Under the pieces are notes generated by a model. That model saw only the letters and a list, made by a program, of their open reading frames with translations, did no database searches and was not told where the DNA came from. Below are positions 6,849 through 28,995 of a DNA stretch of 64,000 nt, piece by piece (positions within the stretch are counted from its first letter, which is position 1; each line of letters begins with the position of its first letter). The position numbers were made by a program, and so were the translations under genes. This stretch comes from Bacteroidales bacterium (GTDB lineage Bacteria > Bacteroidota > Bacteroidia > Bacteroidales > UBA932). The stretch is taken from contig JAFYYM010000084.1 in the NCBI GenBank assembly GCA_017557535.1, forward strand, positions 35,263 to 99,262. The letters run 5' to 3'.

Positions 6849-9800
6849 ATGAGCGATTTCCGTATTTTCGTAGAGAAGTATCCCGAATTCCAAGTTGAGG
6901 CTCGAAGCCTTTTGTCCGAGTTTAATGAGAACCTTCAGCTCAAGCTGAAGACCCTCAGGTTGATTAATGTCTACGATCTTTTCGGATTCACACCGGAATT
7001 GCTCGAGAAGAGCCGTTACAGCGTGTTCGGAGAGATAGTCACTGATTCGGTGACAGACATTATGCCTGACGCGGCCAAGTATATCGCCGTGGAGTACCTC
7101 CCTGGTCAGTTCGACCAGAGGGCTGCCTCGGCAGTGGACTGTGTCCACCTTATTGACCCGAAGGCTAAGATCAACATCAAGAGCTCTAAACTCATAATAG
7201 TCGACGACGACGCCTCGAAGGAGACTCTGGAGAAGATCCGCCATTACGTGATCAATCCCGTGGAATCGAGAGAGAAAGATCTAGGGAAACTATCTGACAC
7301 TGAGCATGCCGCAGTCAAGGATGTACCAGTGCTTGAAGGATTTCGCTCGATGGAAGGTGCTGATCTCAAGGCATATTGCAAAAAGATGGGGCTCGCGATG
7401 AATGAGGATGACCTCGCCGAAGTCGTCAGGTATTTCACCGCGGAGGGAAGGGATCCCAATGAGACCGAACTCAGGATCCTGGACACCTATTGGAGCGACC
7501 ATTGCCGCCACACTACATTCACGACAGAGCTCGAGGACATCACTGTCGAGGAATCTTTCATAAAGGAAGACATCGAGGGCACCATGAGGCTGTACCTCAA
7601 AATGCGCTCGGATCTCGGCCGGGAAAACAAAGGGCTGAACCTCATGGATATGGCCACGATAGGTGCCAAATACCTCAGGAAAGCCGGCAAACTGGACGAC
7701 ATGGAGGTGAGTGAGGAGAACAACGCCTGTAGCATATTCATCGACGTTGATGTTGACGGCCAGTCCGAGCGTTGGCTCCTCATGTTCAAGAATGAGACTC
7801 ACAACCACCCTACGGAAATCGAACCTTTCGGCGGCGCCGCGACTTGCCTTGGAGGAGCCATCAGGGATCCTCTTTCCGGACGTGCTTACGTCTATCAGGC
7901 CATGCGCGTCACTGGTGCCGGGGATATTTACAAACCTGTCTCTGAGACGATTCCTGGCAAGCTGCCCCAGAAGGTTATCACCCGCAAGGCCGCCCATGGA
8001 TATTCCAGCTATGGCAACCAGATCGGACTCGCCACAACCCACGTCAGGGAAATTTTCCATGACGGTTACACGGCGAAGAGGATGGAGGTCGGAGCGGTGG
8101 TTGGTGCCGTTAAGGCGGCTAATGTCAGGCGGGAAAGTCCAGCTCCTGGCGACGTGGTGATGATGCTTGGAGGCCGCACCGGCAGGGATGGTATTGGTGG
8201 AGCCACAGGCTCATCCAAAGAGCACACCGAGGAATCCCTTGAGACTTGCGGCAGCGAGGTGCAAAAAGGTAATCCGCCTGAGGAAAGGAAGCTCGAGAGA
8301 CTGTTCCGCAGGCCTGAGGTGACCTCTTTGATCAAGAAATCCAACGATTTCGGAGCCGGAGGTGTCAGCGTCGCTATCGGTGAGCTGACCGCCGGACTGG
8401 ACATCTACCTCGACAGGGTCCCCGTCAAATACAGCGGAATGAATTCCACGGAACTGGCTATCAGTGAATCGCAAGAGAGGATGGCAGTCGTTATCGAGGC
8501 CGCGAGCGAGGAGCGGTTCAAGGAGTATTGCCACTCCGAAAACATCGAAGTGACCCATGTCGCTGATGTGACGGATACGGAGAGGATGAGGATGTTCAAC
8601 AAGGGCGAGCTGGTCGTTGATCTCCGCAGGGACTTCATTGACAGCGCCGGAGCGAAGCATTTTTCCAAGTCTACCGTCGGAGCCGTGGATGACTCAGATC
8701 CGTTTTCTCGTGATGTCCCCGGGAAGAACTTGAAAGAGAGGATGTTCGCCAATCTTCAGGATCCAAATGTCACAAGCCAGAAGGGCCTGATCGAGATGTT
8801 TGACTCAACAATCGGGCGGTCCACAGTCTTGATGCCCTTTGGAGGCGAGCTTCAGACCACCGAGACCCAGGTCTCCGTCCAGAAACTCCCTGTTGACGGA
8901 TTCACCGACACGGCCAGCATGATGGCATTCGGATTCAATCCCGACCTCTGTGACTGGAGCCCTTACCACGGAGCCGCCTACTCGTTCGTGGAAGCCTGCT
9001 CGAAGATTGTCGCCGCGGGAGGCGACTGGAAAACGATGAGATTCTCCTGCCAGGAGTATTTCGAGAGAATGACTTCAGACCCTCACACCTGGGGTAAGCC
9101 TACAGCGGCACTTCTCGGAGCCCTGAAAATGCAGGAAGCTCTTGGACTGCCTTCAATAGGTGGCAAAGACTCCATGAGTGGCTCATTTGAGACAGAGCAC
9201 GGACCTATACATGTTCCACCAACCCTCATCGCGTTCGGTATAACTCCTGTGAAGGTCGGTCATGTCATCTCGCCCGAGTTCAAGTGGGAAGGCGACAGGT
9301 TGTATCTGGTGAGGCACACGCCTCTCTCCAACAAGATGCCTGATGTGGAGCAACTCAAGAGGAACTGGGATAACATCCTCGCGAAGATCAAGGACGGCAC
9401 CATCGTGGCCGCCTGGTCTGTCGGGTTCGGAGGAGTCGCCGAGGGTCTCTGCAAGATGAGTTTCGGCAATGCCTTCGGCTTCGATGTGAGACTGAGCGAA
9501 GACGACCTGTTCAATCTCTCCTACGGATCGATCGTGATCGAGACCGACGGGGAAGTGGATTTCGAGAATGCCGAACTGATCGGAGATGTCACCTCTGGAG
9601 AAGACGGGAATGTCCGGGTCAACGGTACATCAATCTCCATTTTCGAGTTGATGGATTTCAATGGTTCCCTATTCGAGAAAGTATACCCGGCTGTCAGCGA
9701 ATCCTCCCACAAGAGGCTTCTGCCTCGTGGAATGGAAGGGATCAAGCCGTTCAAGGCCAAAAAGACAGATCTCGAATATAAAGGCCCGAAGGTGGATAAG

Positions 9801-10601
9801 GTCATCGCTTACCTTCCCGTATTCCCTGGAACGAACTGCGACTATGACTCCGCCAAGGCTTTCCGCAAAGCGGGAGCCGAGGTCCGCACGACCGTTTTCC
9901 GCAACCTCTCCGACAAGGATGTCTTCGACTCGATTGATGAGATGGCCGCCGGTATCCGTAGCTGCCAGATACTCATGCTCTCAGGAGGGTTCTCAGCGGG
10001 TGATGAGCCTGACGGTAGCGGCAAGTTCATAGCCAATGTGCTGAACAACGGGGAGATAGCCTCAGCAATCGAGGATTTGCTGTCCCGGGGAGGTCTTATC
10101 CTCGGAATATGCAATGGCTTCCAGGCTCTTGTCAAATCCGGTCTTCTTCCTTACGGGGAGCTCGGAAAGGTCACCAAAGACTCCCCCACGCTGTTCCGCA
10201 ATAACATCAACCGTCACATCTCCCAGATGGTGACCACAAGAGTCGCCACCACCAACTCACCATGGCTGCGAGGTATGACAATAGGTGACGAATATACCAT
10301 CCCGGTCAGCCATGGAGAGGGTAAATTTGTCGTGAATGAGGAACTCGCTAAGGAGTTATTCGCAAACGGACAGGTGGCTTTCCAGTATGTTGATCCGCTC
10401 ACGGACGAGCCCACGATGGAGTCACCTTACAACCCGAATGGCTCATATTACGCCATTGAGGGTATCATCGGCCGCAACGGCCAGATACTTGGCAAGATGG
10501 GCCATAGCGAGCGCTATGAGAATGGATTGTTCAAGAATATTGAAGCTGATCTTGAGCAGCCCCTCTTTGAGAATGCCGTAAGATATTTCGGAGTTAAATA
10601 A
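6849..10601 (+). CDS. purL: Phosphoribosylformylglycinamidine synthase (single-chain)
   Basis: The 1250-residue FGAM synthase makes FGAM from FGAR, glutamine and ATP in purine synthesis (cytoplasm). The layout is that of the large PurL: an N-terminal PurS-like region, two AIRS-type halves (TYWSDHCRHTTF and NETHNHPTEIEPFGGAAT in the first), and a C-terminal glutamine amidotransferase with FPGTNCDYD, GICNGFQAL (nucleophile Cys) and SHGEGKF (His). The length fits the single-chain form. Its stop codon overlaps the ATG of the following methyltransferase by 1 nt (TAATG), so the corrinoid cassette is probably translated with it. Confidence 0.97.
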   Translation: MSDFRIFVEKYPEFQVEARSLLSEFNENLQLKLKTLRLINVYDLFGFTPELLEKSRYSVFGEIVTDSVTDIMPDAAKYIAVEYLPGQFDQRAASAVDCVHLIDPKAKINIKSSKLIIVDDDASKETLEKIRHYVINPVESREKDLGKLSDTEHAAVKDVPVLEGFRSMEGADLKAYCKKMGLAMNEDDLAEVVRYFTAEGRDPNETELRILDTYWSDHCRHTTFTTELEDITVEESFIKEDIEGTMRLYLKMRSDLGRENKGLNLMDMATIGAKYLRKAGKLDDMEVSEENNACSIFIDVDVDGQSERWLLMFKNETHNHPTEIEPFGGAATCLGGAIRDPLSGRAYVYQAMRVTGAGDIYKPVSETIPGKLPQKVITRKAAHGYSSYGNQIGLATTHVREIFHDGYTAKRMEVGAVVGAVKAANVRRESPAPGDVVMMLGGRTGRDGIGGATGSSKEHTEESLETCGSEVQKGNPPEERKLERLFRRPEVTSLIKKSNDFGAGGVSVAIGELTAGLDIYLDRVPVKYSGMNSTELAISESQERMAVVIEAASEERFKEYCHSENIEVTHVADVTDTERMRMFNKGELVVDLRRDFIDSAGAKHFSKSTVGAVDDSDPFSRDVPGKNLKERMFANLQDPNVTSQKGLIEMFDSTIGRSTVLMPFGGELQTTETQVSVQKLPVDGFTDTASMMAFGFNPDLCDWSPYHGAAYSFVEACSKIVAAGGDWKTMRFSCQEYFERMTSDPHTWGKPTAALLGALKMQEALGLPSIGGKDSMSGSFETEHGPIHVPPTLIAFGITPVKVGHVISPEFKWEGDRLYLVRHTPLSNKMPDVEQLKRNWDNILAKIKDGTIVAAWSVGFGGVAEGLCKMSFGNAFGFDVRLSEDDLFNLSYGSIVIETDGEVDFENAELIGDVTSGEDGNVRVNGTSISIFELMDFNGSLFEKVYPAVSESSHKRLLPRGMEGIKPFKAKKTDLEYKGPKVDKVIAYLPVFPGTNCDYDSAKAFRKAGAEVRTTVFRNLSDKDVFDSIDEMAAGIRSCQILMLSGGFSAGDEPDGSGKFIANVLNNGEIASAIEDLLSRGGLILGICNGFQALVKSGLLPYGELGKVTKDSPTLFRNNINRHISQMVTTRVATTNSPWLRGMTIGDEYTIPVSHGEGKFVVNEELAKELFANGQVAFQYVDPLTDEPTMESPYNPNGSYYAIEGIIGRNGQILGKMGHSERYENGLFKNIEADLEQPLFENAVRYFGVK

Positions 10602-11860
10602 TGACAGGTAAAGAACGAATCAGGACTGTCCTGGAGCACCATGAGGCGGACAGGATCGCGGTAGATTTCGGAACGACCCCCGTCACCGGAATCCACTGCA
10701 AGGTTGTAGAGGCGTTGCGTAAGCACTATGGCCTGGACGATCACCCGGTCTATGTCCATGAACCCGGACAAATGCTGGGATATATCGAAGACGACCTTGC
10801 TGAAGCTCTCGGTACTGACACCGCCGGTTGTTTCTCACCAAAGAATTCGATAGGGGTCTGGAACAAAGACTGGAAGAAGTACCGGATGCCATGGGGGCAG
10901 GAGGTGATGCTTCCTGCCAGGATGGTCGATTCTTTCACCGAGAAAGATGGAGGTCTCTATTCATATCCCGAGGGTGACAAATCCCTGCCTCCTTCCTGCC
11001 ATATGCCTGAACGCTGCTATTTCTTCGATTCGATAGAACGTCAACAAGGTGAGATTGATGACGACAATCTCAATGTCGAGGATAATCTCCAGGAATATGG
11101 AGAAATTGACGACGAGACCCTGTCCTATTGGAAGACTGTCACCGACAGGGCCGCCAAGACAGGACGGGCTGTTGTGGCCGGATTCGGGGGAATGGCCCTT
11201 GGGGATGTCGCCAGGATAATCTCTCCAGCGATTCGCGAGCCACGGGGTATCAGGAGCGTAGCGGAGTGGTATATGTCCACAGTCTGCCGGCCTGACTACA
11301 TAAAGGAACTGTTCGACCGCATCTCGACCCTGGCAGTCAAGAACCTCGAAAAAATCTATTCAGTAGTAGGTGATAACGTTGACGTGGTTTACGTTTGCGG
11401 AGCTGATTTCGGCACGCAGACCAGTCAATTCATGTCAGTTGATACTCTCAACGACCTGTATGTCCCCTACTACAAACGGATGAACGACTGGATTCACCAG
11501 AACACAACCTGGAATACTTTCAAGCATTGCTGCGGGGCCATCTATCCCTTAATGGACAGCTTGATCAATGCGGGTTTCGACATCATCAATCCCGTGCAGA
11601 TAGCGGCAAAGGACATGGATCCGCAAAGGCTAAAAGACGAATTCGGAGACCGTGTCACTTTCTGGGGCGGAGGAGTCGACACCCAGAAGACGCTGCCGTT
11701 CGGAACCCCTGCCCAAGTTCGGGATGAGGTTCTCAAGCTATGTGAGATATTCAGTAAAGACGGAGGATTCGTATATAACACCGTCCACAACATCCAGGCT
11801 AATGTCCCTGTTGAGAATGTGGTCGCGCTCATGGATACTTTAAAAGAAATTCGCTCATAA
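10601..11860 (+). CDS. Uroporphyrinogen decarboxylase-like (MtaA/CmuA-type) methyltransferase 1
   Basis: A 419-residue protein of the UROD/MetE-like barrel superfamily, not heme UroD. It lacks the UroD N-terminal arginine signature, and its partner genes are a corrinoid protein and a B12 activation domain. Features include FKHCCGAIYPLMDSL (metal-type His-x-Cys), FWGGGVDTQKTLPFG and VHNIQANVPVEN near the C-terminus. Members of this branch transfer methyl groups to or from corrinoid proteins. The start ATG overlaps the purL stop; the corrinoid protein gene begins 1 nt after its stop. The probable role is demethylation of an unknown substrate onto Co(I)-corrinoid. Confidence 0.85.
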   Translation: MTGKERIRTVLEHHEADRIAVDFGTTPVTGIHCKVVEALRKHYGLDDHPVYVHEPGQMLGYIEDDLAEALGTDTAGCFSPKNSIGVWNKDWKKYRMPWGQEVMLPARMVDSFTEKDGGLYSYPEGDKSLPPSCHMPERCYFFDSIERQQGEIDDDNLNVEDNLQEYGEIDDETLSYWKTVTDRAAKTGRAVVAGFGGMALGDVARIISPAIREPRGIRSVAEWYMSTVCRPDYIKELFDRISTLAVKNLEKIYSVVGDNVDVVYVCGADFGTQTSQFMSVDTLNDLYVPYYKRMNDWIHQNTTWNTFKHCCGAIYPLMDSLINAGFDIINPVQIAAKDMDPQRLKDEFGDRVTFWGGGVDTQKTLPFGTPAQVRDEVLKLCEIFSKDGGFVYNTVHNIQANVPVENVVALMDTLKEIRS

Positions 11861-11861
11861 T

Positions 11862-12479
11862 ATGGATAAACTCTACGATGCCATTTTCAAGGGGATGGCT
11901 CCTTTGGCAAAAACCGCTGTCCTTGAAGCATTGGACAACGACAAATCACCACAGGACATCATCGACGAATCCATGATTCCGGCGATGGAAGCTATTGGAC
12001 AGGAATTCGAGGCCGGCAATGTCTTCGTGCCAAACCTTCTTCTCAGCGCGAGGGCCATGAAATCAGCCCTGGAAATCCTGAAGCCGCTCATGATGGCTGG
12101 ACTGACCACCACTCTTGGGACAGTTGTCATCGGAACGGTGAAGGGAGATCTCCACGACATTGGCAAGAATCTGGTGGCATCGATGCTTGAAGGGCGCGGA
12201 TTCAAGGTGATCAACCTTGGGACCGATGTGTCCAAAGAACGCTTCATCGAGGCGGCTAAGGAGAACAATGCGGATATAATCTGCCTGTCAGCCCTCCTGA
12301 CAACAACGATGGATTATATGAAAGAGATTGTGGATGCGGTCAGGGCGGATGGCTTGGACATAAAGATTATGGTAGGTGGTGCCCCGCTTACCCAGGATTT
12401 CGCCACCAGTATCGGTGCCGACGGCTATAGCTCAAATGCGAACGAAGCTGTTGTGGTGGCAAAAAAACTATTGTCCTGA
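11862..12479 (+). CDS. Corrinoid methyl-carrier protein (MtbC/MtaC type)
   Basis: The 205-residue two-domain protein begins with a helical cap (residues ~5-85, PF02607-like, with VPNLLLSARAM). A cobalamin-binding Rossmann domain follows, with the signature GDLHDIGKN (the DxHxxG lower-ligand His), CLSALLTTT and MVGGAPL. It carries the methyl group between methyltransferases as methyl-Co(III). Its last base overlaps the next start (TGATG), so the activator is translationally coupled. The length is normal for MtbC, MtaC and MttC proteins. Confidence 0.93.
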   Translation: MDKLYDAIFKGMAPLAKTAVLEALDNDKSPQDIIDESMIPAMEAIGQEFEAGNVFVPNLLLSARAMKSALEILKPLMMAGLTTTLGTVVIGTVKGDLHDIGKNLVASMLEGRGFKVINLGTDVSKERFIEAAKENNADIICLSALLTTTMDYMKEIVDAVRADGLDIKIMVGGAPLTQDFATSIGADGYSSNANEAVVVAKKLLS

Positions 12480-13141
12480 TGATTGAGAGGGCTTTCCAGA
12501 TAAGCCCGGAAGAACTGCCCGAGAAAGAAGTGTGGTTCGCTATGGGATACAGGGATTCCGTACCAGATCAAAGGATACGGGACATGGTCCGTGACATCAG
12601 GAACGAACTCGTTCCCAAGGCGACACCCCGTTATATTTACCAGGTTGTCGAGGCTGAGAGGCTATCCTCCAGGCAGGTCCGCTTCGCAGGCAAGACCTTT
12701 AATCCTGAGGGAATCATCTGTTCATACCTCAAGGGCATGACCCATGCCCTCCTTTTCATAGGCACAGCGGGATGGGAATACGAAAAAGCCAAGGAAGAGT
12801 TGAAGGAAAGTGAGGACATTGTCGCTGACTTCATAGCTGATTCGATCGGGACTGTCCTCGCCGAGATGACGGTCAGCCGGATTGAGCAGGATTACGATGG
12901 GCCCGGAACCATTTCCATGCCCTACAGCCCTGGTTATTGCAACTGGGACATCAGGGAACAGCATCTCTTGTTCTCCCTCTTCCCTGAAAAACCTTGTGGG
13001 GTTATTCTTTCCGAGTCTTCGCTAATGATGCCGGAGAAATCCGTCAGTGGTTTCTTCGCCTTGGGAGAGACCCTTCAAAGACAACCTTATCATTGTCAAA
13101 TCTGCAAGAACAACAAATGCTACAAAAGAAGAAACGCCTAG
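12479..13141 (+). CDS. Stand-alone MetH-like B12 reactivation domain with C-terminal Cys motif
   Basis: A 220-residue protein resembling the AdoMet-binding activation domain of cobalamin-dependent methionine synthase (PF02965). The hallmark is YSPGYCNWDIREQ around residues 145-157, matching the RxxPGY-type AdoMet loop, followed by a GVILSESSLMMPEKSVSG region. In MetH this domain remethylates inactive Co(II)-B12 using AdoMet and an electron. Here it is a separate gene next to a corrinoid protein, so it most likely reactivates that protein. The C-terminus ends with CQICKNNKC, a Cys cluster that could hold a metal or Fe-S centre (inference). It differs from RamA/ACE-type activators, which are much larger ferredoxin-like proteins. 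Confidence 0.82.
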   Translation: MIERAFQISPEELPEKEVWFAMGYRDSVPDQRIRDMVRDIRNELVPKATPRYIYQVVEAERLSSRQVRFAGKTFNPEGIICSYLKGMTHALLFIGTAGWEYEKAKEELKESEDIVADFIADSIGTVLAEMTVSRIEQDYDGPGTISMPYSPGYCNWDIREQHLLFSLFPEKPCGVILSESSLMMPEKSVSGFFALGETLQRQPYHCQICKNNKCYKRRNA

Positions 13142-14094
13142 TAATCCCCATTATGACTCATCCGGGGATTGAGCTTTGTGGCAGCACTGTCTTTAAAGCG
13201 GTGACTGAAGGCCAGGCGCATGCGGACGCTATTCTCGCGTTGAATGACAAGTTCCCCGCCGATGCGGTGACAGCGATAATGGACCTCACTGTTGAAGCGG
13301 AAGCGTTCGGTGCGGAAATCAGGTTTTCCGAGAATGACATCCCGAACGTAATCGGCCGACTTGTATCTGATTCGGATGAAGTCGACACTCTTGAGGTTCC
13401 TTCACTCGACAGAGGGAGGATTCGGGAATACCTGAAAGCCAACAGCATAGTTGCCTCAAACATCAAGGACAAGAGGATATTCGGGGGGTGTATCGGTCCG
13501 TTCTCCCTTGCCGGCAGACTCTTTGACCTCTCCGAGTTGATGATGGCCATGTACATCGAGCCAGAGACCGTGACAATGCTCCTGGACAAGTGCACCGCCT
13601 TCATCACTGAATATCTGAAGGCGATGAAGGAGACTGGTATCAACGGCGTGATCCTTGCCGAACCAGCCGCTGGACTGGTGTCCAACGACGATTGCCTTCA
13701 GTATTCCTCAGCTTATGTCCGGAAGATCGTTGAGGCCGTACAAGATGACAGTTTCTCAATTGTTTTGCATAACTGCGGCAATACAGGTCATTGCACAAAG
13801 GCGATGCTCAGCTCGGGAGCTTCCGCCCTGCATTTCGGCAACAAGGCTGACATGGTGAACGCACTGGAGACTTGCCCCTCAGACCTTCCGGTGATGGGTA
13901 ACATCGATCCTGTGGGTATCATGCGGCAAGGTTCTCCCGAAAAAGTCTATGCCTCCGTGAGCGAACTGCTGGAAAAAACCTCCGGATACGACAACTTCAT
14001 CCTATCCACAGGATGTGATGTGCCGCCTCGTACCCCCTTCGAGAATATTCAAGCATTCTATCAAGCCCTTAAGGACTACAATGAGAAAGATTGA
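13117..14094 (+). CDS. Uroporphyrinogen decarboxylase-like methyltransferase 2 (MtaA/MtbA type)
   Basis: A 325-residue UROD-family protein, closer than its neighbour at 10601 to MtaA/MtbA corrinoid:thiol methyltransferases. Metal-ligand motifs are visible: LHNCGNTG (His-x-Cys) and, about 75 residues later, STGCDVPPRTP (third ligand Cys), the zinc set that activates an acceptor thiol. In methanogens the acceptor is coenzyme M; here it is unknown, homocysteine being one possibility. The frame is open from 12994, but an upstream start would overlap the activator by about 150 nt; ATG 13117 overlaps by 25 nt and starts at MLQKKKRLVIPIMTHPG. ATG 13153 is an alternative. Confidence 0.85.
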   Translation: MLQKKKRLVIPIMTHPGIELCGSTVFKAVTEGQAHADAILALNDKFPADAVTAIMDLTVEAEAFGAEIRFSENDIPNVIGRLVSDSDEVDTLEVPSLDRGRIREYLKANSIVASNIKDKRIFGGCIGPFSLAGRLFDLSELMMAMYIEPETVTMLLDKCTAFITEYLKAMKETGINGVILAEPAAGLVSNDDCLQYSSAYVRKIVEAVQDDSFSIVLHNCGNTGHCTKAMLSSGASALHFGNKADMVNALETCPSDLPVMGNIDPVGIMRQGSPEKVYASVSELLEKTSGYDNFILSTGCDVPPRTPFENIQAFYQALKDYNEKD

Positions 14095-15538
14095 TTACTC
14101 TTCCTCAATGACCTCGTTCCGTTGGTGGATGTGCGCGCTGTTATTCTTCGCCACGACCGTCAACTACCTCGACCGTCAGGTACTTTCCCTCACTTACGAG
14201 GAATTCATCAAGCCCGAGTTTCATTGGACAGATGCCGAGTACGGCACCGTAACGGGATTCTTCAGCATCTTCTATGCGATTTGCTGCCTGTTCGCGGGAA
14301 AGTTCATTGACTGGATCGGAGTTAAACGGGGATATATCATCTCGATCTGCGTATGGTCCCTTGGAGCAGTACTCCATGCGACCACCGGAATGTTGACAGC
14401 ATCCATGACCGGAGTCGAGTCCGCAGCTGCCTTGAAGGCCGTTAAAGCCGGAAGCGACATAGCTTTGGCGATCTCGACAACCTCCGTCTATCTTTTCATG
14501 CTATGGCGAGGCGTGCTGGCGCTGGGTGAAGCCGGCAACTTCCCCTCAGCCATCAAGGTCACCGCTGAATATTTCCCGAAAAAGGACCGTGCCTTCGCGA
14601 CCGCCATATTCAACGCCGGCTCCTCGATAGGAGCCCTGGCCGCTCCCCTATGCATCCCTCCACTCGCCAAGCACATGGGATGGGAGATGGCGTTCATCAT
14701 CATCGGTGCCTTGGGATTCATCTGGGTGTTTTTCTGGGCTTTCATGTACGACAAGCCGGAATCCCATCCGAAGGTCAATGAAGCTGAGCTTGAGTATTTA
14801 CACCAGGATGACGCTGAAGAGGCTGCCGAAAAAGCGGCCATCGCCGCGGAAAGGAGCATGTCTATCCGTGAATGTCTCAGATACCGTCAGGCGTGGGCGG
14901 CCATCCTGAATAAGTTCATCTCCGACTGCGTGTGGTGGTTCTTCCTTTTCTGGGCCCCGTCATATTTCGACACGGAATTCGGAGCAAAGGCAACCACGAT
15001 GAAGGGGAAACTCCTGCTGATCACGCTCTACGCCATCTGCACGGTTCTTTCCATCTTCGGAGGATATGTTCCGAAACACTTCGTTGAGAAGAAGGGCATG
15101 CACCCTTTTGACGCCCGCATGAAGTCAATGCTGATTTTCGCCATGTTCCCGCTGATGGCCATCTTAGCCCAGCCCATGGGAGCCTGGTTCCACACCCCCT
15201 GGTGGCCCGCCATCTTGATCGGCCTCGCCGCCGCCGGACATTCAGCCTGGGCGGCCAACACCTACAGTCTGATCTCTGACCTCTTCCCTAAGGGGACTAT
15301 CGGCACACTGACCGGGATGTGCTCCCTCGCTGGAGGAATCTCGACTATGGCCTTGCAGAAAATAGCTGGCAACCTTTTCACATTCGCTGAGAAAGCCGGG
15401 GCATCTTTTCGCTTCCTGGGATTCGAGGGGAAGCCTGCCGGGTATTTCATCATCTTCTGCTACTGCGGACTCGCCTACCTTATTTCCTGGATAGTAATGA
15501 AATCATTGGTCCCGAAATACAAACCTGTCAGGCAATAG
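14081..15538 (+). CDS. MFS transporter, hexuronate/anion:cation symporter type (ExuT-like)
   Basis: A 485-residue inner-membrane transporter with about twelve hydrophobic segments. It shows ACS-family signs: NYLDRQVLS in TM1, GLGEAGNFPSAIK-like text (ALGEAGNFPSAIKVTAEYFP) in TM4, and a large central loop (residues ~230-275) rich in Glu and Ala. This family carries hexuronates and related organic anions by proton symport. Start ATG 14081 overlaps the preceding methyltransferase by 14 nt, so the transporter is translationally coupled to the corrinoid cassette and probably imports its substrate. Exact substrate unknown. Confidence 0.9.
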   Translation: MRKIDYSSSMTSFRWWMCALLFFATTVNYLDRQVLSLTYEEFIKPEFHWTDAEYGTVTGFFSIFYAICCLFAGKFIDWIGVKRGYIISICVWSLGAVLHATTGMLTASMTGVESAAALKAVKAGSDIALAISTTSVYLFMLWRGVLALGEAGNFPSAIKVTAEYFPKKDRAFATAIFNAGSSIGALAAPLCIPPLAKHMGWEMAFIIIGALGFIWVFFWAFMYDKPESHPKVNEAELEYLHQDDAEEAAEKAAIAAERSMSIRECLRYRQAWAAILNKFISDCVWWFFLFWAPSYFDTEFGAKATTMKGKLLLITLYAICTVLSIFGGYVPKHFVEKKGMHPFDARMKSMLIFAMFPLMAILAQPMGAWFHTPWWPAILIGLAAAGHSAWAANTYSLISDLFPKGTIGTLTGMCSLAGGISTMALQKIAGNLFTFAEKAGASFRFLGFEGKPAGYFIIFCYCGLAYLISWIVMKSLVPKYKPVRQ

Positions 15539-15602: not shown

Positions 15603-15764
15603 ATGAAAAAATACACTTGCGACATCTGCGGTTACGAGTATGATCCCGCCGTCGGCGATCCTGACAACGGAATAGCGCCCGGAACAGCTTTCGAGGATCT
15701 TCCCGAGGATTGGGTATGCCCTCTCTGCGGCGTAGGTAAGGAGGACTTCTCCGAAACGGAATAA
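15603..15764 (+). CDS. Rubredoxin
   Basis: A short 53-residue gene. The iron centre has two CxxCG knuckles: C6-x2-C9-G and C39-x2-C42-G, with the conserved aromatic and Gly/Pro positions ([18 protein letters not shown]) of the family. It carries single electrons in the cytoplasm, typically for oxygen or peroxide defence. It lies 64 nt downstream of the transporter ending the corrinoid cassette, so it could supply reducing equivalents for corrinoid reactivation (inference). It is followed by cysS 32 nt later. Confidence 0.96.
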
Positions 15765-18870: not shown

Positions 18871-21810
18871 CTACTTGACTATCACGATATTAGGAACCTT
18901 ACGGGCCCCGGCATGGTCGAACTTCCGGTTGTCGTAAGGGAAGTTAATTATTCCGGTCTCGTCTGTCCAAAGGGTCGATGAACCACCTCCGTCAAGGTTC
19001 AGCGCATCTTTGAGACCGAGAAGACGGGCGACGGTGGCCAGCTCAGGAATGCTCATGCCATCGGCCTGACCGGGGAACCTACCGTCCACCACAACCATAT
19101 AGACCATTCCTTTGTCGTCCCAGCCAATGAATGTCCTGGGATGACGCATATAATTGAAGGAAGATTTCATATCAATAACCGGCACCTTCCCCTCTTTCAT
19201 AAGAACCGGACCCGAGGCTAAGGCTGAATAATACTCCGTCCTGTAGGTTTCCACTTTAGTGGAGTCGTACTGAAGTATTTCCAACTTATGACCTTCCTTG
19301 TCTTTTATGGCAAGGACACCGTTGGAACGCTCTTCCCCTGACGACGGAGTCCGTCCTAGAACCTCCCCATCTATGGAGAAGAAGGTGTGGGGAATAAGCC
19401 TTCTCATATTGAAATAGCTCCCGTTCAGCGCTATACGGGCTCCCTCACGGATCGCAATCGAGTCGGTGGTGGCAGCCATTTCCCCGGGAGCGTGAACTAA
19501 GGCCGTCTCCCTTCCTGAGGCAGGATACCTCGCGATGCTGATACTCTGCGTAGAGTTTCTGAAAGGGAATTGAACATATGTCCATTCAGCGCCATCTCCG
19601 GCGTCCTTCCATTCCCAACCCGCGGCATTCCACTCCTCACGGTCTTTTGGGATGACGGCTCCCCACTCCCTGTTCGGGATCGGGCCCATCTCAAGGGTAA
19701 GTTCCCCACCAGCCATGATGTCCTCATGGGTGATCCATGGACCATCAAGAGGCTTCCCATTCAAAGCGGCGCTCTGAATATATTTATTCTCGTCGGAGAC
19801 TCCTTTTGCCTTGATTCTAAACACTTTCCCATTAGAAAGACGCATTTCCGACTCTTCGAACACCGGACTCCCAATGGTGTAAACAGCCTCACCTGGAGTG
19901 ACGGGATAAAAACCTAAGGAGGAGAAAACCACGAAGGAGGTCATACCGCCACCATCCTCATCACCCGGCACGCCCATCAGATCATCCCTGAACCAAGTGT
20001 CAAGCATCTGCCGAATCCTCTTCTGTGTCTTCCATGGCGCCCCGGCATAATTGTATAGATAGGGAATATGCAAAGACGGCTCATTGGCCATCGAGAATTG
20101 GCCCACGTTGCCGGTATGATCCGGAAACTTGGCGTAGAAAAAGAACTTGGCCCTTCCCAATGGGGTGGCGAACATATTGTCAAGCTCCATCACGAACCTA
20201 TCGGGACCGCCCATCAGCGACACCAGATCCGGTATGTTGTGCTGAACATCCCAACGATACACCCAGGCGTTGTTCTCATCGTAGTATTGACGACCGCCTA
20301 TCCCTCCTCCGAAATTGTAGTCAACGTCAGGAAGGAATTCTCCATCCTTGTCCTTTGGATGGAAGAATAATGTCTCAGGATTGAACAACTTTCGGTAGTT
20401 GCCGGACCAATCGCGGTAATACTCAGCGGCTTCCTTATCCCCCGCAGCATCAGCGAGTTTTGACAAGGCCCAAGAGTCGTATGCCGTACCGAGACTCACA
20501 GCCACTGGCTGGCGTTGCTCCCATCCATCCACATTCGGATCGGTCTCAGGCTCTCCATCCTTGAGAGCGGGGAACCAGCCGTTATTCCAATAAAACTCAT
20601 CCAGAGCCCCGGCAGGATTTCCGCTCCATGGAACCAAAGTCTTCTCCCTCAACGCTTTCTGACCAGCCAAGAAGGCTGCCTTGACATCGATGTCCAAACC
20701 CTTGGCTAAAGCGTCGGCGAAGGTCGGAATCCCGTGGTTGGAGTTCATCCTACGAGAGTCTCCCGTCACCTCAGGGAAGGTGGGCATCCAACCTGTCCCC
20801 ATCTGATCAGCCATCCTTAAATATGACGCCAGGATATTCTCCTCAATAGGACGGTCCATAAGGATGCGGAGAGGATGCGCCGCCCTGTAAGTGTCCCAAA
20901 TCCAGTCATCCGTGTAGAACGGCACTCCCCCATCCTCATGGACAGAGTTGTCGAAGGCGCTCCAATACCGCCCGTCCTCGCTCATAAGGATAGGCCTCTC
21001 GAAAGTCCGGTAATATGAGGTGTAAAAGACTCTCTTACGTTTCTCCGGGCCTTTTACGGATATCCTTCCCAAGGTCTCATTCCATATCTTCCTGCCTGCG
21101 GCCGCAAGTGCATCGATATCATAATCCGTTAATTCAGCCCTAAGGTTGGCCTTGGCTTGGGCAATGTCGATGAATGATATTCCGTAGCGAAGCCTGACGG
21201 ATCCGGTTTCAAATCCAAGGGTTGTCCATCCACTTTCCTCCTCTTCGGAAACAACTGTGGACAAGGGTTTTACTTCTGGCTCGAGATACACATAAACCTT
21301 TGTCTCCCCATCCACAATCTGCCAACCTTCCAGAGCCTCGCCATTCCAGGAGACTTTACCTTTCCCGCTGTAAAGGATAACTTTAAACGGAGAGTCCGCC
21401 TTAAGTTCATATATGGCCGAATGATTAGACAGCGCATATCGGGCTTTGACTTCCCCTTCGGAAAGGGTAACCTCGAAGGAATATGGCGTGATGGACTCGT
21501 TATCATAAGAAACGGGTATAACCGGCCCCTTCTCGCCTCTTGTCGTGACCGAGAGCTTGAAGGCAGAGCGCTCCCTGTGGTTAGTGACTATCACCGGCAA
21601 GCCATTCAGGTATTCCGAAGTGTAATCAGATCGCTCCGGATAGATCCTGAGCATCGAGTTGGGCAGTTGGACCGTCGGATAGGTCGGGACAAGAAGGTGG
21701 CTGATATTCCCGGCGTAAGGGTTGACGTAATCTACTGGTTCGAGTTTCGGATCGACACAAGCGACCACGAATAAAGCAGCCAGTAATGCGGGAAAAACAT
21801 GATTTTTCAT
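18871..21810 (-). CDS. GH92 alpha-mannosidase fused to a phosphodiester glycosidase (NAGPA) domain
   Basis: A 979-residue lipoprotein (lipobox FVVAC). Residues ~25-720 form a GH92 exo-alpha-mannosidase: start motif VDYVNPYAG, WDTYRAAHPL, ANEPSLHIPYLYN (acid Glu) and GDEDGGGMTSF (catalytic Asp pair). These enzymes are Ca2+-dependent and inverting. Residues ~735-979 match the PF09992 phosphodiester glycosidase family (mammalian uncovering enzyme), with MRHPRTFIGWDDKG and the signature NLDGGGSSTLW. The pairing suggests removal of both a phosphodiester-linked cap and terminal mannose from a phosphomannan or N-glycan (inference). ATG 21810 gives the lipoprotein signal; the longer frame to 21891 runs into the upstream terminator. 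Separate from the upstream receptor genes by that terminator. Confidence 0.9.
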   Translation of the reverse strand: MKNHVFPALLAALFVVACVDPKLEPVDYVNPYAGNISHLLVPTYPTVQLPNSMLRIYPERSDYTSEYLNGLPVIVTNHRERSAFKLSVTTRGEKGPVIPVSYDNESITPYSFEVTLSEGEVKARYALSNHSAIYELKADSPFKVILYSGKGKVSWNGEALEGWQIVDGETKVYVYLEPEVKPLSTVVSEEEESGWTTLGFETGSVRLRYGISFIDIAQAKANLRAELTDYDIDALAAAGRKIWNETLGRISVKGPEKRKRVFYTSYYRTFERPILMSEDGRYWSAFDNSVHEDGGVPFYTDDWIWDTYRAAHPLRILMDRPIEENILASYLRMADQMGTGWMPTFPEVTGDSRRMNSNHGIPTFADALAKGLDIDVKAAFLAGQKALREKTLVPWSGNPAGALDEFYWNNGWFPALKDGEPETDPNVDGWEQRQPVAVSLGTAYDSWALSKLADAAGDKEAAEYYRDWSGNYRKLFNPETLFFHPKDKDGEFLPDVDYNFGGGIGGRQYYDENNAWVYRWDVQHNIPDLVSLMGGPDRFVMELDNMFATPLGRAKFFFYAKFPDHTGNVGQFSMANEPSLHIPYLYNYAGAPWKTQKRIRQMLDTWFRDDLMGVPGDEDGGGMTSFVVFSSLGFYPVTPGEAVYTIGSPVFEESEMRLSNGKVFRIKAKGVSDENKYIQSAALNGKPLDGPWITHEDIMAGGELTLEMGPIPNREWGAVIPKDREEWNAAGWEWKDAGDGAEWTYVQFPFRNSTQSISIARYPASGRETALVHAPGEMAATTDSIAIREGARIALNGSYFNMRRLIPHTFFSIDGEVLGRTPSSGEERSNGVLAIKDKEGHKLEILQYDSTKVETYRTEYYSALASGPVLMKEGKVPVIDMKSSFNYMRHPRTFIGWDDKGMVYMVVVDGRFPGQADGMSIPELATVARLLGLKDALNLDGGGSSTLWTDETGIINFPYDNRKFDHAGARKVPNIVIVK

Positions 21811-21854
21811 CTTGAACGGGGATGAATGGTTCTCTTTGTAAAGATACAAAAAAA

Positions 21855-21888
21855 CAAGGAGAGACCGCAATATGTCAGTCTCTCCTTG
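21855..21888 (-). terminator. Strong rho-independent terminator
   Basis: 11-bp inverted repeat CAAGGAGAGAC (21855-21865) and GTCTCTCCTTG (21878-21888). On the minus strand it is followed by TTTTTTTG. It closes the receptor/lipoprotein operon and indicates separate transcription, or read-through control, of the GH92-GH51 pair. Confidence 0.85.
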
Positions 21889-21906
21889 CATAAGGGATAG
21901 ATAAGC

Positions 21907-27563: not shown

Positions 27564-27698
27564 AATTTGATATAAATAGTATTAAGATTATAATCCTTTC
27601 TTCCTACATAATATAACTTGCGAAATTAACACAAAATATCGGGTTGCTAAAATTTATTTCATTCATATACGGAATTATCTTATCTTCGCGGCAGAAAA

Positions 27699-27753
27699 CT
27701 TCCGGGGAAGGATTTGCGCCGCTTGCAACCCCGGTCAAAAAAATGCTAAAGAA
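27699..27753 (+). ncRNA. SAM-II-type riboswitch in the metK leader
   Basis: The segment shows the SAM-II consensus in order. The P1 stem is CCGGGG (27702-27707) with CCCCGG (27729-27734). It encloses GATTT (27711-27715) and CTTGCAA (27722-27728), and GCTAAAG (27745-27751) lies 10 nt after the stem, ending 2 nt before the metK ATG. In this class AdoMet binding forms a pseudoknot that masks the ribosome site, so high AdoMet would reduce metK translation. Confidence 0.82.
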
Positions 27754-28995
27754 ATGAATTACCTTTTCACTTCGGAGTCAGTCTCCGAGGGCCATCCTGA
27801 TAAGGTGGCCGACCAAATTTCAGACGCTATTCTTGACGAGTTCCTACGCCGTGACCCCGAGTCCAGGGTCGCGTGCGAGACATTCTGCTCCACCGGTCTG
27901 GTGATTGTGGGCGGAGAGGTACGCTCAGACGCCTATGTCGACATCCAAGGAACTGTACGGGACGTGATTAACCGGATCGGCTACAACAAGGCCGATTACA
28001 TGTTTGACGGCAACTCCTGCGGAGTGCTTTCGCAAATCCACGAGCAGAGTCAGGACATCAACCGGGGTGTGTCCCGGGAGAATCCTGAGGATCAAGGAGC
28101 TGGAGACCAGGGTATGATGTTCGGTTACGCCTGCAAGGCGACTGAGAACTACATGCCCCTAGCCTTGTATCTATCCCATATCACACTCAAGGAACTTGCT
28201 GATATCAGACACAATGAGCTCGATTTGATGCCTTATCTGAGACCTGACTCAAAGGCCCAGTACACAATCGAGTTTGACTCTTCAGACAAGCCGGTAAGAG
28301 TCCACACTATAGTCCTCTCGACCCAACACGACGAGTTCGGTACCGACGAGGAAATGCACTCCAAGATTGAGAGCGATGTACGGAATATCCTGCTTCCCAG
28401 AGTGATAGCGAAGCTGAACCCCTCGACAGCCGCATTGTTCAAGGGAGACTTCATTCTCCATGTCAACCCGACAGGCAAGTTCGTGATCGGAGGGCCCGCC
28501 GGAGACACCGGTCTGACCGGCAGAAAGATAATCGTGGACACCTACGGAGGCCGCTCAGCCCATGGCGGCGGAGCTTTCTCAGGCAAAGACCCTTCCAAGG
28601 TCGACCGCAGTGCGGCATATGCCGCCAGGTATATCGCCAAGAATATGGTCGCCGCCGGAGTGGCTGAGGAGATGATGGTGCAGATCGCCTACGCCATTGG
28701 CGTGGCCAAGCCGGTCAGCGTGTATGTCAACACGAAGGGAACGGGGATAATCCCGGACGCCGAGATCGCTGACAAGATCGGGAAGATGTTCGATTTGCGT
28801 CCTGCGGCCATTATCCGCAAGTTCGGATTGAAGAACCCCATATACGGGCCTACGGCAGCATACGGCCATTTCGGAAGGGATCCTTACGTAAAGAAGGTCA
28901 CCCTGATCCGCAACGGAATCGAAATAGAAGAAGAAGTCCAGTTCTTCGGTTGGGAAAAACTGGACTCCGTCGATCTTATACGCTCCAGGTTTTAA
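27754..28995 (+). CDS. metK: S-adenosylmethionine synthetase
   Basis: The 413-residue enzyme makes AdoMet from methionine and ATP. It carries the family signatures: SVSEGHPDK near the start, [12 protein letters not shown] (methionine and ATP site) and [16 protein letters not shown] (P-loop-like). A SAM-II riboswitch lies directly upstream, consistent with feedback at translation. A weak -7-like element TATCTTCG (27681-27688) could drive the transcript. The gene is divergent from the Oar-like receptor and convergent with the RAYT gene; a hairpin at 29039-29064 follows the stop. Confidence 0.97.

Follow-up and report, generated by a model that had tools for sequence, protein, structure and literature searches.

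A five-gene corrinoid methyl-transfer cassette of gut Bacteroidales, a candidate O-demethylase of methylated carbohydrates

A stretch of 64,000 nucleotides (nt) on contig JAFYYM010000084.1 of a Bacteroidales bacterium of the UBA932 lineage (hereafter the window) carries five adjoining genes for a UroD-superfamily methyltransferase (MT1), a corrinoid (vitamin B12) carrier protein, a stand-alone activation domain of the MetH type, a second, MtaA-like UroD protein (MT2) and a permease of the major facilitator superfamily (MFS). We consider it probable that this cassette is a modular O-demethylase of Bacteroidota that acts on O-methylated carbohydrates and hands the methyl group to a thiol. More tentatively, as a serious possibility, we propose that it belongs to an undescribed class of modular B12 pathway with a common MT2 served by interchangeable MT1s (for O-methyl-glucuronate, -rhamnose, -fucose, -mannose/-glucose and others), and with a MetH-type reactivase that binds S-adenosylmethionine (SAM) and has a cysteine metal or iron–sulfur (Fe-S) site in place of the ATP-driven activators. 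Many O-methyl sugars occur in the glycans of plants, algae and microbes, for example 4-O-methyl-glucuronate in xylan and 2-O-methyl-fucose and 2-O-methyl-xylose in rhamnogalacturonan II. To our knowledge, how such ethers are handled in the anaerobic gut and rumen is an open question, and the sugar demethylases known to us need oxygen. In the open-access literature, preprints and subscription papers lying outside the scope of the search, we found neither demethylation of sugars by a corrinoid system nor a cassette of this kind described.

Composition of the cassette

The original prediction had described a corrinoid methyl-transfer cassette whose genes abut or overlap, and ORF (open reading frame) and Pfam evidence confirms five real, tightly packed ORFs at the same positions (Table 1). 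Their junctions are, in order, a gap of 1 nt and overlaps of 1, 25 and 14 nt, and MT1 overlaps by 1 nt the stop codon of the ORF upstream. An NCBIfam scan of the cassette proteins gave sub-threshold matches only, with models of the MtaA/CmuA type for both UroD proteins. In known O-demethylases a specificity-setting MT1 needs a carrier, an activator and an MT2 beside it (PMC8630106; PMC13222342; PMC12915777), and all four roles are filled in the cassette. It resembles the MtvABC, Odm/Vdm and MtoABCD systems of acetogens and methoxydotrophic archaea in combining a UroD-superfamily MT1, an MT2, an activator and a small corrinoid protein, and an MFS gene is likewise found in the Mto operon (PMC8630106; PMC13222342). 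In those systems, however, MT2 passes the methyl group to a pterin, whereas the MT2 of the cassette is an MtaA-like UroD protein and not a pterin enzyme of the MtrH/MtvA type; their activator is ATP-dependent, whereas that of the cassette is of the MetH type with a cysteine tail and not of the RACo/RamA type; and they act on aromatics, whereas the neighbours of the cassette's relatives point to sugars. Given the differing types of MT2 and activator, the cassette would work like an O-demethylase yet lacks two features that define the known ones.

The structural model of MT1 has a mean predicted local distance difference test score (pLDDT) of 92.9 and finds its best solved structures in UroD (E 1.5e-11) and MtaA (4ay7; 2.9e-11). 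H309 and C311 are kept in 37/37 relatives in the family alignment and H396 in 35/36 of those that reach that position, and an H-N-x-Q stretch occupies the site of the last cysteine. Besides MT1 and MT2 the genome has one more URO-D match, on contig C31 (L103:267-1331), which makes three. This third protein is MT1-like, with 34% identity to MT1 over the C-terminal part and H-x-D-G in place of H-x-C-G; no carrier gene lies within the fetched stretch, and the protein may share the carrier of the cassette. The carrier has both B12-binding domains and the DxHxxG motif of TIGR02370-type proteins, scores 202 bits against the TIGR02370 model, slightly under its cut-off of 215.3, and finds its best PDB match in 1y80 (5e-50); its DLHDIG motif is invariant.

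MT2 shares with the coenzyme M methyltransferases MtaA and MtbA a fold family and an H-x-C ... C pattern: alignment with 4ay7 (2.7e-21) brings both H-x-C-G and the later cysteine into register, and the pattern, which would bind zinc, is kept in 43/43 alignment rows. Unlike them, it scores far beneath the curated cut-offs (130 of 400 bits for MtaA, 139 of 600 for MtbA). The site is predicted to be zinc-binding and thiol-activating, which points to a thiol as the acceptor and supports the original prediction, in which homocysteine or another thiol had been preferred to coenzyme M. As far as we know, use of coenzyme M here is unlikely, although its synthesis genes were not searched for. Since in related folds corrinoid proteins hand their methyl group to zinc-bound homocysteine (PMC7857596), homocysteine is our first guess. 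Some MT2 genes (L156-L160) stand divergent from a gene labelled by similarity as a LacI-type regulator, in some cases with a carrier only and in others alone.

The activator scores 31.4 bits against PF02965 (cut-off 25), and its model (mean pLDDT 91.2) has as best fold match TM0269 of Thermotoga maritima (1j6r; Foldseek, 2.5e-10), followed by MetH activation domains. The earlier view that it is not RamA-like thus holds; PF14574, sought as the sign of a RamA/RACo activator elsewhere in the cassette genomes, was found in 0/3, which speaks against an ATP-type activator. TM0269 is reportedly required to reactivate a separate methionine synthase. The activator has the fold and the SPGY region of TM0269 and the MetH domain, but would serve a different carrier and has C154 and a cysteine tail, for which TM0269 has no room: in the alignment, which ends two residues from the C terminus of TM0269, a glycine stands where the activator has C154. 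C154, in a PGYC stretch, and C206, C209 and C214, in a tail of the form C-x2-C-x4/5-C, are invariant in 32/32 activator relatives; the MetH of the same genome has no C-x2-C. The cysteine tail may form a metal or Fe-S site. Full-length MetH is encoded on a separate contig (C97), and the activator is neither fused to nor beside a methionine synthase.

A profile search of 46 genomes returned a stand-alone activator above 150 bits, a line set after the scores were seen, in 23/24 genomes with MT2 (absent in G266) versus 2/22 without it (G043 and G049; Fisher 1e-9); two more MT2-free genomes, G053 and G039, have weaker matches of similar length. Eight of the 24 had supplied rows of the profile, and without them the count is 15/16 versus 2/22. 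In 10/23 genomes activator and MT2 are on different contigs or more than 7 kb apart, and therefore their link is not mere adjacency. The activator is fused to a CobW-type GTPase domain at one locus (L149:8274-9851) and directly preceded by a CobW gene at another (L085), which suggests a link to a metal or cobalamin chaperone.

The transporter had been called ExuT-like. ExuT is indeed the nearest of six E. coli paralogues (139 bits), but identity is only 26.6% and the tree, with its long branches, is indecisive, so that the placement is not fixed and phylogeny was set aside as a guide to the substrate. Against TIGR00893 (D-galactonate transporter) the permease scores 179 of 395 bits, below threshold.

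Table 1. Cassette genes and other features of the window
Feature	Position	Strand	Evidence
ORF upstream of MT1	6849..10601		
MT1, UroD-superfamily methyltransferase, proposed substrate demethylase onto Co(I)	10601..11860	+	PF01208 1.1e-13
Corrinoid (B12) carrier protein	11862..12479	+	PF02607 1.2e-20; PF02310 3.3e-31
Stand-alone activation domain of the MetH type, cysteine tail at the C terminus, proposed corrinoid reactivase	12479..13141	+	PF02965 1.7e-7
MT2, MtaA-like, proposed methylcobamide:thiol methyltransferase	13117..14094	+	PF01208 1.5e-58
MFS permease, proposed substrate importer	14081..15538	+	PF07690 3.7e-48
Rubredoxin	15603..15764	+	PF00301 4e-26
Single long ORF, GH92 mannosidase and NAGPA phosphodiester-glycosidase domains	18871..21891	-	
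SAM-II riboswitch	27698..27759	+	54.5 bits, cut-off 44
ORF, presumably S-adenosylmethionine synthetase	27754..28995		

Distribution and genomic neighbours of the cassette

The five-gene set recurs in other gut Bacteroidales genomes, as would be expected of conserved neighbours. Gene order is identical at L004-L012, where MT2 identity is 77-90% (L006 and L011 end at contig ends), and a locus from horse gut (L013) has the same five genes with one insert. Four Bacteroides loci, in Bacteroides fragilis and relatives, have the same order without the MFS gene (MT2 identity 59-61%), so that the window type of MT1 occurs in two full-cassette settings, the close relatives with the permease and the Bacteroides species. 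At E <= 0.001, MT2 was found in 12/61 relatives, with strong matches in 3/37 genomes of the genus, this one included, and in an order-wide draw it was found at E <= 1e-60 in 22/393 genomes, with one match each among the candidates scored (some genomes had first-look candidates left unscored). MT1-like proteins occur in 54/392 genomes of such a draw, often several per genome. A search of genome contigs gave 22 MT2 loci. Merged at 97% identity, 64 MT2 loci including the window reduce to 43 non-redundant loci, which have within 6.5 kb of MT2 a carrier (29/43), an activator (27/43) or another UroD protein (26/43), several of the misses being loci that end at contig ends. MT2 thus marks the cassette family, in which the core of carrier, MT2 and activator recurs, while MT1, transporter and neighbours vary. 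In the MT2 tree the window clade lies nearest to a clade linked to glycoside hydrolase (GH) family 67, with moderate support (86/88), and the Bacteroides cassettes with window-type MT1 are placed elsewhere; the GH67-linked MT1 lacks the H-x-C motif and belongs to another UroD subfamily. This mismatch between MT2 tree and MT1 type fits an exchange of MT1 between cores.

Carbohydrate genes (Pfam, NCBIfam) lie within 6.5 kb in 18/43 MT2 loci (Table 2; several family labels are phmmer matches to Pfam-scanned exemplars), so that methylated plant sugars are the likely targets. Opposite-strand GH92 genes near the window, L005-L008 and L010 were not counted, since other genes intervene. The chance test of neighbours covered one marker, the rhamnose mutarotase gene rhaM, which is present in 12/21 MT2 genomes; in 5 of the 7 genomes in which rhaM and an MT1-like gene were both located, the two are no more than 3 kb apart, and one million random placements never exceeded 4. 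The Bacteroides loci also hold a GPH transporter and, below cut-off, a cellobiose-epimerase-like protein, and the locus of the Bacteroides fragilis type looks like a beta-mannan locus.

Table 2. Carbohydrate-related genes at MT2 loci
Locus	Genes
L013	GH78, 13 nt after MFS; APH-like kinase in the same run
L014, L016, L019 (Bacteroides)	GH3, GH26, GH130
L017	rhaM, opposite strand
L020, L023, L024	GH67 directly before MT2
L025	GH42, GH2
L112, L151	GH31
L118	RhaT, rhaM, MT1, GH29, carrier, MT2, activator, GH106 in a row
L149	GH38
L150	rhaM; FucP-like permease, 274.8 of 280.4 bits (just below cut-off)
L152	GH92
L153	Fucokinase/fucose-1-P guanylyltransferase, 1411 bits (cut-off 721), 3 nt before MT2
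L154	Fucokinase, identified by resemblance to L153
L155	rhaM, RhaT

Further observations at related loci concern proteins of other kinds. At the two GH31 loci a 354-aa protein without a Pfam match (L112:4680-5741, L151:5351-6412) stands between GH31 and a sodium:solute symporter, where MT1 is expected; it is not counted as an MT1, profile comparison with MT1 giving a 4.5% probability. Related cassettes with two MT1-like genes have a protein of about 895 aa directly before the carrier (L145:10318-12999, L146:3971-6658), and the L145 copy, the one scanned, has no Pfam match. Some MT1 genes from the order-wide search adjoin a ROK kinase (L090, Pfam), GH3 (L086), GH29 (L096) and a sulfatase (L102). 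In L013 a cobalamin riboswitch (L013:11452-11642, minus strand, 85 bits) lies a few kb downstream of the cassette and precedes a 601-aa minus-strand ORF rather than the cassette. In L009, L012 and L013 no PurL gene precedes the cassette, as it does in several close relatives, and PurL was rejected as a functional partner.

Proposed mechanism and competing explanations

In the mechanism that we propose, the MFS permease would import a methylated sugar, sugar acid or cyclitol, MT1 would transfer its methyl group without oxygen to Co(I) on the carrier, freeing the ordinary sugar, and MT2 would take the methyl group off Co(III) and place it on a thiol bound to zinc, with homocysteine, which would give methionine, the most likely and another thiol the alternative. 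A carrier that had slipped to Co(II) would be rescued by the activator with SAM and an electron, possibly by way of the cysteine cluster. MT1, transporter and glycosidases would be swapped to suit the sugar, with carrier, MT2 and activator constant. The make-up of the cassette, its conservation, the retained motifs, the co-occurrence of activator and MT2 and the sugar genes beside relatives are observed; the direction of transfer, the substrate class, the identity of the thiol and the redox chemistry we infer. Marine Bacteroidota demethylate 6-O-methyl-galactose with an oxygen-dependent P450. That route likewise removes the methyl ether of an algal sugar in Bacteroidota, but it needs oxygen and yields formaldehyde, whereas the cassette would work anaerobically and keep the methyl group.

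Several observations weigh against this proposal. No scanned sugar gene was seen at 25/43 MT2 loci, the window among them, and no sugar enzyme adjoins the window cassette on its strand; these genomes have many glycosidase genes, and the chance control on neighbours is that for rhaM only. Among 20 loci fetched for MT1 relatives from other parts of the order, 0/20 have a carrier nearby and 2/20 an activator, so that MT1 relatives either need not be parts of a corrinoid system or act in trans. The activator model is least certain in the cysteine tail (blocks at pLDDT 69 and 58), and the Fisher value overstates independence because the genomes are related. Lastly, aromatic ethers or haloalkanes are the substrates of those UroD-type MT1s that have been characterised (PMC8630106; PMC13222342).

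The original prediction was that the window cassette demethylates 4-O-methyl-glucuronate from xylan. Its more general claim, that of a sugar-acid-like substrate, is backed as far as the carbohydrate class by the neighbours of relatives, and GH67 does abut a sister cassette whose MT2 clade is nearest to that of the window; the nearest paralogue of the permease is ExuT, and UxaC is present in 3/3 cassette genomes of the genus (3/5 in five chosen cassette-free genomes). The xylan part fared worse: GH67 is found in 0/3 and GH115 in 1/3 of these cassette genomes versus 2/5 and 2/5 of the cassette-free ones, the MT1 of the GH67-linked cassettes is of the other UroD subfamily, and an orthologous MT1 stands among mannan-type genes in Bacteroides. 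Given the lack of GH67 in the three genomes, 4-O-methyl-glucuronate fits the sister GH67 cassette better, and as the substrate in the window we think it quite unlikely. Methyl-glucuronate that the cell would cut from xylan with enzymes of its own is disfavoured; the free compound, once liberated by others, may be imported, with UxaC at hand. An O-methyl hexose, deoxyhexose, uronate or cyclitol are all candidate substrates in the window.

Rhamnosidases and glucosidases can also free methoxylated aglycones, and a classical aromatic O-demethylase might have moved into Bacteroidota to act on ferulate-, vanillate- or flavonoid-type methoxy groups freed with plant glycans. The UroD-type MtvB, OdmB, VdmB and MtoB act on methoxy-aromatics, and the Mto operon includes an MFS gene as well (PMC8630106; PMC13222342). 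We nevertheless hold it to be unlikely, for the types of MT2 and activator are unlike those of Mtv/Odm/Mto, and the RhaT, rhamnose mutarotase, FucP-like permease, fucokinase and GH67 of relatives have no obvious aromatic role. A very improbable reading, in our judgement, is methionine supply, in which MT1 would take the methyl group from a non-carbohydrate such as a methylthiol or betaine and MT2 would be a folate-independent methionine synthase; the acceptor would be the same as in the carbohydrate reading and the donor different. The characterised MT1s for betaine and amines are in other families, the variable neighbours are sugar genes, and full-length MetH is present in the genome, so that the cassette would not be its only methionine synthase, and methionine synthesis as the sole role was rejected. 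In favour of methionine supply are the predicted thiol-activating site of MT2 and the MetE-like core methionine synthases, which probably take the methyl group from a corrinoid, zinc activating homocysteine (PMC7857596).

Surroundings in the window and implications

A rubredoxin gene lies between the MFS gene and the next long ORF, and rubredoxin is conceivable as the electron donor for corrinoid reactivation. It follows the MFS gene in the window, L004-L008 and L010; in L009 it is found upstream, at a distance of 4 kb and on the opposite strand, and it was not seen in the stretches of L011, L012 and L013. It was therefore rejected as an obligate partner and, not being kept beside the cassette at other sites, is probably a local neighbour. 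Rfam, at gathering level, shows no RNA switch at the cassette; elsewhere in the window a SAM-II riboswitch stands just before an ORF that we take to encode S-adenosylmethionine synthetase, and the names PurL, CysS and MetK for window ORFs are likewise presumed from their sequences. A promoter scan gave consensus matches only and was not used.

If the carbohydrate reading is true, gut and rumen Bacteroidales would have a B12-dependent anaerobic route for methylated sugars, by which the methyl ethers of plant walls would be turned into methionine or a methylated thiol. This would explain the presence of methyltransferases in some glycan loci and tie the supply of vitamin B12 to the use of glycans, and it would make available a small candidate activator of corrinoid enzymes that works without ATP. 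The reading can be tested in Bacteroides strains that bear the cassette.

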